26,514 bases of DNA from a virus (IMGVR_UViG_3300025086_000197:1-26514), one strand, 5' to 3'; shown: positions 23,467 to 26,514, numbered from the stretch's first letter. The notes: generated by a model from the letters alone, not told the origin. Numbers and translations are program-made.

Positions 23467-24015
23467 ATGAAACAGTTATTAATAATATTATTCTTATTTA
23501 CAACAGTGGCTGTTGCAACAGATTCCATTGCTGAGACGAATACCGTGTCAAGCACGGTGGTAACAAATTCAACCCCACCTACTGCAAACGCACCCTCTAT
23601 AATTAATTCTAATAGTGATATATGTAAAGTTGGTGTTGGTGGAAGTGTACAGAATAATGTTTTAGGTGTAGCTACAGGAATTTTAGTAGACGACCAACTG
23701 TGTCAAAAATTAAAATTAAGTCGCTCTATGTACGCCTACGGCATGAAAGTTGCGGCTGTTTCTATACTCTGTCAAGACCCACGAGTTTGGGATGCGATGA
23801 CTGATGCAGGGACCCCATGCCCAGCACGAGGTTCTATAGGCGTAGAAGCTGCACAATATTGGTCGGATAATCCTGATGAGATTCCTGATGGGAGTAAATA
23901 TAAAACAGACTATGTACAGGCAGCTAAACCTGTAAAAGGAGAATTAAGTGATGTTGGTCATATTACACTTTATAAGACTTTGTTCCTTATTACTACTGGT
24001 CTCCTCTTATTCTAA
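23467..24015 (+). CDS. Exported protein with signal peptide, four Cys and C-terminal hydrophobic tail
   Basis: The 182-residue protein has a clear N-terminal signal peptide (MKQLLIILFLFTTVAVATDS), a Ser/Thr/Asn/Pro-rich linker (residues 23-50), then an ordered part: ICKVGVGGSVQNNVLGVATG, DDQLCQKLKLSRSMYAYGMK, VAAVSILCQDPRVWDAMTDA and GTPCPARGSIG. Four Cys could form two disulfides in the periplasm. The SVQNNVLGVATG...CQKLKLSRxMYxxGMKVAAVSxLCQDxRVxDAMxxAGTPCP pattern is one I recall from marine-phage genomes after the tail genes, with no function. The last 15-18 residues (ITLYKTLFLITTGLLLF) are hydrophobic and may be a second anchor. The final 68 bases overlap the next gene. Confidence 0.7.
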   Translation: MKQLLIILFLFTTVAVATDSIAETNTVSSTVVTNSTPPTANAPSIINSNSDICKVGVGGSVQNNVLGVATGILVDDQLCQKLKLSRSMYAYGMKVAAVSILCQDPRVWDAMTDAGTPCPARGSIGVEAAQYWSDNPDEIPDGSKYKTDYVQAAKPVKGELSDVGHITLYKTLFLITTGLLLF

Positions 24016-25399
24016 AGCAGACACTTGCTTACCTGATGTAGAAGGACTTTGTATACCTGGAGTAACAATCACAGAAGAAACAGAAGCAGTTGTTACTGAA
24101 GAAGATAAAGGTACAGAGATTATAACAACAACCACAACCACTGTAACCACTACCACTACAACAGTTACAAATGAGGATTCAGGAGATATTCTTGATGGTG
24201 ATAATGATTATGTATCATCATCTAAAGAAGGTGACATGGACATTGATTGGGGTGGACAAGGTGGTGCTAACATGCCAACAGGTAATGCTTGTTATGGATT
24301 AGGTTCAGATAAATGTGCACAGATTACAGGTAGTGGTAATTCAACATCAACAATGGGCGTTGCAGGAATGGGCACAACTTTTATACAGACTGTCGATATT
24401 TCTGATTTAGAAATAGATAATGGAGGACAAGTTAAGTATACTATAGAAGTAGATAAGCAAGATGCTCAAGATAGAATATATATGCACATTACAGGACTTA
24501 ATGGAACTAGTCAGGTCTTTTCAGGCACTGACATCCTGTCTGAATCTGGAGTATCAACAGGCTACCAGTCTTATAATGGGTCTTTCGATTTCGGTGGTGT
24601 ATTAAATAAAGTAGTTATAGAGATTGGTGGTAGAGACATCAATCTAGCTGTTGGTCCGTTATTTGATGATGTGACAGTTAACGTATTCTACAATGTTATC
24701 AATACGATAATTACACAACAGATTACTACAATAGAAGAAATATATTATCTAGATATATTTGACCCAACAGAATTAGACTTTATAGAAGAGGTTTTTGAGT
24801 TCAATGATGTTATTGTTGATGAAGCAGGAGATATAGAATTTGCTCCTATAGAATCACAATCAGAGGAAGTGTCGTACGAAACTGTAGAATTAGAAATACA
24901 AGAGTTTGAAATAGATATTCCAGAGTTAGATACTCCAGAGGTAGCCAGTGTAGAAATAGAGGCAGAAATGGAAATGGAATTAGAAATGGAAATGGAAGTA
25001 GCAGATGAGCCAGTCGAAGAAACAACAGAACCCGATAGCGAAACTACTGAAGAACCCGCTGTGGAAGCAGAGGATAATACAGAACAAGAAGAGGTACAGC
25101 AGGAAGAGGCTGAAGAACCTAAAGAATCTGTAAAAGAACCTTCTGCAAAAGAAAAAGCTGCAACTAAGATTGTTAAAAAGATAGATGATAAAGAACGATA
25201 TGATGATGCAGCTCAAATGAAAACATTAATTGTAATGCAAATATTAGGAAATACTAAAACATTTTTTGACACTCAATCAACTATTGTTGATACAGATGTC
25301 AATGAGTACTTAAACAAAACAATAGAAGATAACTATGGAGTATTATTTAACATGGCACAAGCACAAACTATAGAGGAGATGATAAATGCCCAGTATTGA
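23951..25399 (+). CDS. Large exported Thr/Glu-rich protein with a beta domain
   Basis: The start may be ATG 23951 (used here) or the adjacent GTG 23948; AAAGGAG (23935-23941) suits both. The signal peptide (MLVILHFIRLCSLLLLVSSY then SKAD) has a signal peptidase I-type end and no lipobox. The mature chain has a small Cys-flanked part (CLPDVEGLCIPG), a Thr run (about residues 58-75), a GDMDIDWGGQGGANMPTGNA element with another Cys pair (ACYGLGSDKCA), a beta-sandwich-like domain (VKYTIEVDKQDAQDRIYMHI, GGVLNKVVIEIGGRDINLAV), a Glu-rich stretch with a MEMELEMEMEV repeat, and a helical C-terminus (KIVKKIDDKERYDDAAQMKT...). I recall similar chains in other marine phages, with no function. It could be a periplasmic or surface-displayed phage protein. 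Confidence 0.7.
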   Translation: MLVILHFIRLCSLLLLVSSYSKADTCLPDVEGLCIPGVTITEETEAVVTEEDKGTEIITTTTTTVTTTTTTVTNEDSGDILDGDNDYVSSSKEGDMDIDWGGQGGANMPTGNACYGLGSDKCAQITGSGNSTSTMGVAGMGTTFIQTVDISDLEIDNGGQVKYTIEVDKQDAQDRIYMHITGLNGTSQVFSGTDILSESGVSTGYQSYNGSFDFGGVLNKVVIEIGGRDINLAVGPLFDDVTVNVFYNVINTIITQQITTIEEIYYLDIFDPTELDFIEEVFEFNDVIVDEAGDIEFAPIESQSEEVSYETVELEIQEFEIDIPELDTPEVASVEIEAEMEMELEMEMEVADEPVEETTEPDSETTEEPAVEAEDNTEQEEVQQEEAEEPKESVKEPSAKEKAATKIVKKIDDKERYDDAAQMKTLIVMQILGNTKTFFDTQSTIVDTDVNEYLNKTIEDNYGVLFNMAQAQTIEEMINAQY

Positions 25400-25901
25400 G
25401 TATCAAGGACTTAAATTTTCTGGTGGAAAATTCTTTATTATTCTATCTTTAATAGGTGCTATCATTGGTGGAGGATGGTCCGGGTATCGTTTTTATGATG
25501 ATTACTTGGATATGAAACAACAAGTTCAAGACTTTGTAGCCCCTGATTTAAGTGGGTTTGATAAGAAAATAGACCTTGCTAAAGCTGAAATGGATAAACG
25601 ATTAGAACTAATTGAACAAGAATTAGAAATGATAAAGGGTGAAATGTCCATGATATTAGAAGAAGTACAGCTTGTCGCAGGAGTTAGTTCTGAATTAAAA
25701 AATGACCTAAAGGCAGATTTAAGAGCCATGAATGGAGATATTAGGCACATTACAGAAATAGTAAATGATGTTGAGGATCGACAAAAAGAAGATACTAGGG
25801 AAGTTTTAGATGAACTTAAATTAATAGAAGAGGCTTTAGATCTAAAAATAGAAAAAGCATTAAATAATCCTTTATCAGGAATGTCAGCGAAAAGTAAATA
25901 G
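25386..25901 (+). CDS. Membrane-anchored coiled-coil protein
   Basis: The 171-residue protein overlaps the preceding gene by 14 bases. Residues 13-33 (GGKFFIILSLIGAIIGGGWS) are one transmembrane helix after a short N-terminus. Residues 34-160 are nearly all coiled coil (MDKRLELIEQELEMIKGEMS, DLKADLRAMNGDIRHITEIV, LKLIEEALDLKIEKALNN). The FSGGKFFIILSxIGAxxGGGWxGYxFYxDYxDMKxQVxxFVAPDLSxFDKK pattern is one I recall from marine-phage genomes. The topology (N-in, coiled coil outside) resembles inner-membrane spanin subunits or anchors, but length and neighbours do not make it a definite spanin. Confidence 0.75.
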   Translation: MPSIEYQGLKFSGGKFFIILSLIGAIIGGGWSGYRFYDDYLDMKQQVQDFVAPDLSGFDKKIDLAKAEMDKRLELIEQELEMIKGEMSMILEEVQLVAGVSSELKNDLKADLRAMNGDIRHITEIVNDVEDRQKEDTREVLDELKLIEEALDLKIEKALNNPLSGMSAKSK

Positions 25902-25909
25902 GAGATAGC

Positions 25910-26116
25910 ATGAACATAGATATAAAGATACTAGCACCATACTTAATAATGGTACTAGGTTTTGCCATGACTTGGGGTATGTGGGCAGAACGATTAGACG
26001 CTTTAGAAACAAAAACGGATAGCATTTCTACAATGCAACAAGACATAGCCATTATAAAAGAAAAGATAATATGGATGGAAGAATATCTTATAAAAACTAG
26101 AGAGGTAATGTACTAA
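25910..26116 (+). CDS. Small single-pass membrane protein, holin-like candidate
   Basis: The 68-residue protein starts after an AGGAG site. Residues 8-26 (LAPYLIMVLGFAMTWGMWAE) form one hydrophobic segment, followed by a short coiled coil (RLDALETKTDSISTMQQDIA, IIKEKIIWMEEYLIKTREVM). One membrane helix plus a charged helical tail fits small single-pass holins or pinholins, but also an accessory subunit of the preceding coiled-coil protein. There is no endolysin gene in the window to support a lysis role. It is coupled to the next gene by TAATG. Confidence 0.65.
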   Translation: MNIDIKILAPYLIMVLGFAMTWGMWAERLDALETKTDSISTMQQDIAIIKEKIIWMEEYLIKTREVMY

Positions 26117-26514
26117 TGCCACACACACCAGATCATACAGTTCCACCAACACAACAAGTTCCTGGGGTAGAATTACCTGCAGGTGTTGTTCCTAATCCTC
26201 AATCAGGTACATCACAAGACACATTAAATTTAGCTAAACAGCAAGTTATTAATCCTGCATTACCTCAAGGTGCAGTTATAACTCCTGCATTACAACAAAC
26301 TCAAACAAATGAAATGCTATCAACACCAGGAGTTTCAACAACTGTACCTACTGCTGTAGTCCCCACTGCAACAGCAGGTACGGCTACAGCTACAACACCA
26401 CAAACTGCAACACAAGTAGCAACACCTGCTCAACAAGCTGCAGCTAATTATACAGCTACTACGGTAGGCACAGCCCCTACTATGACTGCGGCACAAGGTA
26501 CAGTTACTGCACCT
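26116..26514 (+). CDS. Pro/Thr/Ala/Gln-rich protein, 5' part only
   Basis: The frame starts at the ATG that shares its A with the previous TAA and stays open to the window edge (133 codons). The N-terminus is MPHTPDHTVPPTQQVPGVEL, and the rest is low complexity in Pro, Thr, Ala, Gln and Val (VVPTATAGTATATTPQTATQ, then AAQGTVTAP at the edge). Repeats of this kind occur in very long marine-phage structural or internal proteins, as I recall. There is no signal peptide. The end and any folded domain lie outside the window. Confidence 0.65.
   Translation, partial: MPHTPDHTVPPTQQVPGVELPAGVVPNPQSGTSQDTLNLAKQQVINPALPQGAVITPALQQTQTNEMLSTPGVSTTVPTAVVPTATAGTATATTPQTATQVATPAQQAAANYTATTVGTAPTMTAAQGTVTAP

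Follow-up and report, generated by a model that had tools for sequence, protein, structure and literature searches.

A linked trio of exported and membrane-anchored proteins in marine phages as a candidate spanin-like complex

Two-component spanins, such as lambda Rz/Rz1 and T7 18.5/18.7, combine an outer-membrane lipoprotein bearing a lipobox (o-spanin) with a protein made of an N-terminal transmembrane (TM) segment and a periplasmic coiled coil (i-spanin). Unimolecular spanins, represented by T1 gp11 and by the SIO1-type of cobaviruses (PMC6775973), hold an N-terminal lipobox and a C-terminal TM segment in one protein. About 13% of the phage genomes covered by a spanin survey, many of them marine, have no recognizable spanin, and that survey left room for spanins other than lipoproteins and raised the question of other ways to open the outer membrane (PMC6139136). 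Curli (type VIII secretion) operons are a known example of exported surface machinery in pelagiphages (PMC9599517). Here we analyze a viral DNA stretch of 26,514 nt (IMGVR_UViG_3300025086_000197:1-26514; hereafter, the window), which after its tail genes holds three consecutive genes, A, B and C, adjoined by two further genes, D and E. A-B-C is an undescribed three-gene set without a functional family: no published description of the trio was found in the literature searched, and the main text of the transcriptome paper on HTVC022P and HTVC027P (the latter of the HTVC023P type) contains no passage on the trio genes. We favor reading the trio as a late-lysis, spanin-like outer-membrane-disruption complex built of non-homologous parts, to which we give slightly less than an even chance, because it joins a predicted inner-membrane coiled coil and exported partners with a recurrent lysis neighborhood.

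The three genes form a conserved unit. Relatives were collected through IMG/VR searches with A, B and C (hundreds of each, with C searches seeded with the C proteins of two groups), and the derived hidden Markov models (HMMs) were run over all open reading frames (ORFs) of the loci; because similarity to A, B or C was the basis on which the loci were chosen, the counts describe relatives of these seeds. C was found within 3.5 kb downstream of A in 173 of the 173 loci with at least 3.5 kb of downstream sequence (32/32 clusters at 70% identity), and searching from C recovered A upstream in 67 of 67 loci (24/24 with a window-type C and 43/43 with an HTVC023P-type C). The B model recognized its target in 209 of 226 A loci, and the misses, in the cases listed, have an exported ORF in the same slot, long in most of them and about 290 aa in loci L284, L297 and L304. 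Among 50,697 annotated phage records, A is present in 11, all of which also encode C; run on five A-free phages, the C model gave no match in four and a weak match in HTVC200P, to a TM-coiled-coil gene (TMcc) discussed below. Gene D, by contrast, adjoins C in no more than 93 of 322 loci, D and E are confined to the HMO-2011-like neighborhood, and the slot before E is occupied in HMO-2011 and HTVC104P by an unrelated XhlA-like coiled-coil/TM protein. The rarity of D after C and the XhlA-like protein in that slot identify A-B-C as the conserved unit, and D and E were rejected as parts of the system and retained as lineage-specific neighbors only. The first-pass annotation of the window had proposed a conserved but undescribed set of exported and membrane proteins, to be checked by its co-occurrence in other phages and abandoned if the genes were found independently. 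The linkage reported here upholds that proposal for A-B-C, and the independent occurrence that would have spoken against it was not seen; the extension of the set to D and the low-complexity ORF after it fails.

The trio is carried by quite different kinds of phages, comprising HMO-2011-, HTVC023P- and HTVC010P-like phages, a T7-like phage and a T4-like myovirus. Carriers include the HMO-2011-type podoviruses HTVC033P and HTVC115P, HTVC023P, HTVC202P, EXVC032P Baldr, the T7-like Votkovvirus genome MedDCM-OCT-S28-C10 (hereafter, S28-C10) and the 141-kb myovirus Mosig, in which B was assigned by position only. HTVC202P, with an M15 peptidase and a 32 kb genome, appears to resemble HTVC010P-type phages. 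Portal-protein comparison identifies the window as a fragment of an HMO-2011-type phage (SAR11/pelagiphage relatives), with 64% identity to Pelagibacter phage HTVC033P and 50-55% to HTVC103P, HTVC104P, HTVC115P, HMO-2011 and several roseophages. The roseophages CRP-810 and CRP-207 and the spring phage ct7L0027 encode A and C separated by the gene of a different exported protein. Several GenBank annotations in these genomes were not accepted: CRP-810 gp51 (L232:6198-6620) and CRP-207 gp73 (L233:3292-3873), listed as "lysozyme", are C relatives with the TM segment, coiled coil and NPL end, and CRP-810 gp53, listed as "OmpA family", is an A relative. The A gene at L234:4962-5468 (MW202481.1) is missing from the GenBank record, whose only annotations there are two tiny antisense coding sequences (CDS) and the beginning of the following gene. 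Among cellular genomes, all A matches lie on metagenome-assembled or single-cell contigs, which are probably phage contigs, since most of those with enough flanking sequence have C downstream; the exceptions, L334 and L335, are longer alphaproteobacterial contigs with A and without C.

In the window, the four genes and the low-complexity ORF of the first-pass annotation are all present (Table 1), and the tight coupling it described is visible in the overlaps between A and B (65 nt, out of frame), B and C (14 nt) and D and E (1 nt), and in the 8-nt gap between C and D. The ratio of nonsynonymous to synonymous change (pN/pS) in A-D is 0.04-0.24 against close relatives and 0.12-0.47 against more distant ones, and these low values indicate genuine, constrained genes under purifying selection. 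Signal-peptide-like N-termini are present in 34 of 38 A and 36 of 36 B cluster representatives, versus 2 of 25 ordinary HTVC033P CDS; signal-peptide, lipobox and TM calls were made with our own heuristics, lipoboxes by regular-expression scan. By these sequence features, A and B are predicted to be exported, and C and D to be membrane-anchored. The description of A as a Cys-rich exported protein holds as regards its export, while its cysteine content amounts to four conserved residues (C53, C79, C102 and C118), in an alignment of 71 rows with 21 invariant columns. The predicted core of A, at about residues 80-150, is modeled with high confidence (predicted local distance difference test, 91-95), and a C-terminal hydrophobic tail is seen in 18 of 37 representatives and in many relatives within the clade of the window. 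The fold of A has no match in the PDB (best Foldseek E-value 1.4; best VIA-align Z 2.8), which is not proof of a new fold, and PDB sequence searches with A and B returned no credible match. A belongs to no Pfam family, a Pfam scan of A-E yielding nothing over the cut-off, and it matches the C-terminal third of phrog_20531 (E-values 3e-9 to 7e-14), a PHROG family of unknown function for which no functional assignment or link to B and C has been described. In C, an N-terminal hydrophobic helix and a coiled-coil-like body are found in all relatives, and its orientation in the membrane would be that of an i-spanin. All 241 complete ORFs matching the C model have NP[LMIV] among their final 15 residues, compared to 85 of 12,090 other ORFs, the model used for this count covering only the first 100 alignment columns, outside which the motif lies. 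The coiled coil of C in the HTVC023P group (HTVC023P gp48, L227:7023-7382) has a central His-rich segment, HSHDMPKHSHEVGEHQHDEHGH, which may bind metal.

Proximity to lysis genes is a recurrent property of the trio. In close relatives of the window module (L064, L066 and L171), a lysozyme and a 3TM holin are followed by TMcc, exp71 and A-B-C, where TMcc-exp71 is a second recurrent pair composed of a TM-coiled-coil protein (phrog_20984) and a small two-Cys exported protein (phrog_24646). A lysozyme gene lies directly upstream of A in several other such relatives (among them L035, L088 and L113), lysozyme and holin genes lie downstream of C in L161, L162, L175 and L202, and HTVC033P presents the order XhlA-like gene, amidase, holin and A-B-C. 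The trio is followed by an M15 peptidase in HTVC023P and in HTVC023P-type contigs, where TMcc-exp71 is placed between A and B, and a PF11351 holin directly precedes A in Mosig. An endolysin is located at most 3.5 kb from A in 11 of the 23 records with both genes, against 3.6 expected (P=3e-4 only if the records were independent, which they are not), and lineage weighting gives 42% versus 16% by chance. In the T7 gene order, Rz/Rz1 lies between the holin and the terminase; in S28-C10, the space from a 3TM holin-like gene to the terminase genes is taken up by A-B-C, and in the votkoviruses HTVC200P and HTVC119P and other T7-like pelagiphages other small TM-coiled-coil genes stand between holin and terminase. 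Among the functions offered by the first-pass annotation (lysis, superinfection exclusion, virion release and DNA ejection across the periplasm), it is lysis that these holin and endolysin neighbors favor. In the same neighborhood, TMcc-exp71 is itself a candidate two-component lysis pair. It is conceivable, but in our judgment improbable, that this pair is the real spanin equivalent and that A-B-C is an accessory envelope module traveling with the lysis region. Such an assignment would account for the genomes of HTVC019P and HTVC200P, in which the pair alone separates holin from terminase, and for the dozens of loci in which it adjoins or interrupts A-B-C, with three insertion positions (before, inside and after). 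It is harder to reconcile with the many A-B-C loci that do not have the pair, with S28-C10, where A-B-C takes its place, and with the HTVC200P stretch holding the pair, in which no lipobox ORF was found.

Comparison with described systems places A-B-C close to the spanins in organization and apart from them in sequence. The Rz family (PF03245) exceeded the cut-off in none of 26 records, with a positive E. coli control, and scans of the window in every frame, and of the HTVC115P, HTVC033P and HTVC023P stretches, revealed no ORF with a lipobox; S28-C10 has one antisense lipobox candidate of 47 aa, far from the trio. Neither A nor B carries the lipobox expected of an o-spanin, and no ORF in the window combines an N-terminal lipobox with a C-terminal TM segment. 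C does have the predicted i-spanin architecture, with an N-terminal TM segment and a coiled coil that would be periplasmic. The missing lipoprotein feature sets A-B-C outside both the two-component and the unimolecular spanin families. Similarly, no holin family in Pfam or PHROG matches A-D over the cut-off, C and D have a single N-terminal TM segment, and separate holin genes are found beside the trio in relatives. Hence the possibility, raised with the first annotation, that these are ordinary spanin and holin genes is not borne out. The likeness to two-component spanins resides in the putative inner-membrane-anchored periplasmic coiled coil of C, its exported partners and, in part of the records, the lysis neighborhood, in neighboring genes that overlap out of frame (A and B by at least 40 nt in 184 of 212 loci), and in the T7-equivalent position of A-B-C in one genome. 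In contrast, A-B-C has no outer-membrane lipoprotein and no Rz sequence homology, comprises three proteins rather than two, and includes a large exported protein with a glycan-binding fold. With unimolecular spanins the trio would share the role of linking the two membranes, but the signal peptide of A is of the cleavable type, and in some clades A ends in a hydrophobic tail. Pelagiphage curli operons (PMC9599517) resemble the trio as multi-gene exported modules common to unrelated pelagiphages; they differ in gene number, and the Pfam scan of A-E revealed no CsgG, CsgF or curlin-repeat match up to an E-value of 1.

The structure model of B contains, at residues 74-250, a jelly roll of the carbohydrate-binding module (CBM) or galactose-binding type, with a CBM4/6/16/61-type beta-sandwich that fits the carbohydrate-binding-module fold. 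VIA-align matches to CBMs, Fbs1 and tailspike CBMs range from Z 9.5 to 12.8, led by Fbs1 (1umi; Z 12.8, root-mean-square deviation 3.0, 155 residues aligned), the K2-2 phage tailspike (Z 12.3) and CBM16 (Z 11.4), and Foldseek aligns the domain to CBM4-2 with an E-value of 3e-4. The acidic linker that follows is predicted with very low confidence and is probably disordered. The N-terminal region of B varies between lineages and its C-terminus is kept: an iterative model seeded only with the C-terminus of the window protein places the last 110 residues of 272 of 286 B candidates in one family, and the true coverage must be slightly higher, because some candidates are misassigned ORFs, e.g., terminase. 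Three B relatives (L290:6345-8141, L293:6473-8152 and L289:6506-8977) have Cys repeats of the type CPGYxxAYxxQQC, and in L289 and L301 the N-terminal beta domain is of another type, nidogen-like by eye. Three extra small exported genes are found between B and C in L297 (7391-8697), and also in L284 and L304; by eye, they recall pilin/spore-coat-U and chaperone proteins, with no Pfam match.

In the spanin-like model, the N-terminal helix of C would anchor this protein in the inner membrane, with its coiled coil spanning the periplasm and its conserved C-terminal NPL tail docking on the exported partners. A would act as an exported, disulfide-containing adaptor, possibly anchored in the clade of the window also by its C-terminal hydrophobic helix, and the jelly roll of B would bind a glycan of the host envelope (peptidoglycan, lipopolysaccharide or a surface sugar), with the acidic linker and the conserved helical C-terminus of B providing the connection to A and C. 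After the inner-membrane and cell-wall barriers have been eliminated by holin and endolysin, the complex could pull on, fuse or rupture the outer membrane. An alternative with a somewhat smaller, yet still appreciable, likelihood is that A and C serve to display B outside the infected cell, masking the receptor (superinfection exclusion), binding neighboring cells or debris, or altering the cell surface. The CBM-type jelly roll, the variable N-terminal region and kept C-terminus of B, the extra exported genes between B and C, and the precedent of curli-type machinery in pelagiphages (PMC9599517) are all in keeping with display, for which no outer-membrane anchor or secretion apparatus was recognized. 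If display served an early-acting exclusion, neither the repeated intermingling of the trio with lysis-region genes (holin, endolysin and TM-coiled-coil genes) nor the insertion of A-B-C between holin and terminase in a T7-like genome would be expected. We consider it unlikely, and the least likely of the proposals made here, that A-C are packaged and build a trans-periplasmic channel at infection, in the manner of the T7 internal core proteins. The position of the window trio between tail-region genes and E, probably a virion-module gene, and the membrane and coiled-coil character of C and D could be taken in favor of a virion role. Tailed-phage virion proteins assemble in the cytoplasm, so the Sec-type signal peptides of A and B argue against such a role, as does the location of the trio in other phages, beside lysis genes and at a distance from structural ones.

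Several observations weigh against the spanin-like interpretation. There is no lipoprotein anchor by which A or B would grip the outer membrane, TMcc-exp71, often beside A-B-C, could itself be the spanin, and a large B protein with a glycan-binding fold and variable N-terminal domains suits surface display at least as well. The endolysin is far from A in 12 of the 23 records, at 26.7 kb in the nearest module-bearing isolate, HTVC115P, and no lysis enzyme is seen in the window, although the absence of a gene from a 26.5 kb fragment means little. A was not found in HMO-2011 and HTVC104P, which makes the trio accessory within this group. Lastly, matches of C to the Rz-like spanin PHROG 1152 (E-value 0.019) and to tape-measure families were rejected as chance coiled-coil similarity. 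With these reservations, the spanin-like complex remains our preferred interpretation and, more tentatively, A-B-C may serve generally to disrupt the outer membrane in many SAR11 and other marine phages without a recognized spanin, and is a candidate answer for marine phages of this kind. A role in lysis, if true, would account for progeny release by phages that infect the most numerous bacteria of the ocean; a surface module would instead give phages a new means of altering the host surface in the course of infection.

Table 1. Genes of the window locus and representative occurrences of the TMcc-exp71 pair.
Feature	Coordinates	Strand	Length (aa)	Description
Gene A	23467..24015	+	182	Predicted exported; signal peptide, then a low-complexity stretch of Asn/Thr/Ser, a compact domain containing the four conserved Cys, and a predicted hydrophobic helix at the C-terminus
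Gene B	23951..25399	+	482	Predicted exported; GTG start at 23948 possible (483 aa); signal peptide; Thr-rich long beta hairpin 37-79; CBM/galactose-binding-type jelly roll ~74-250; probably disordered acidic linker ~300-420; helical C-terminus
Gene C	25386..25901	+	171	Predicted N-terminal membrane anchor, long coiled coil, C-terminal NPL motif
Gene D (neighbor, outside trio)	25910..26116	+	68	Predicted N-terminal TM and short coiled coil; HMO-2011-lineage neighbor
Gene E (neighbor, outside trio)	26116..26514	+		Still open at window end; low-complexity T/A/P/Q-rich N-terminus
TMcc-exp71, HTVC200P gp48-gp49	L307:7141-7715			
TMcc-exp71, HTVC019P	L309:5474-6048			
TMcc-exp71, HTVC115P gp52-gp51	L002:10382-10949			

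Gene E is the positional equivalent of HTVC115P gp47 (685 aa) and of HMO-2011 gp25. In HTVC115P, a gene annotated as a toxin-activating lysine-acyltransferase (gp46, L002:13789-14238) lies between the E gene and large virion-type genes.

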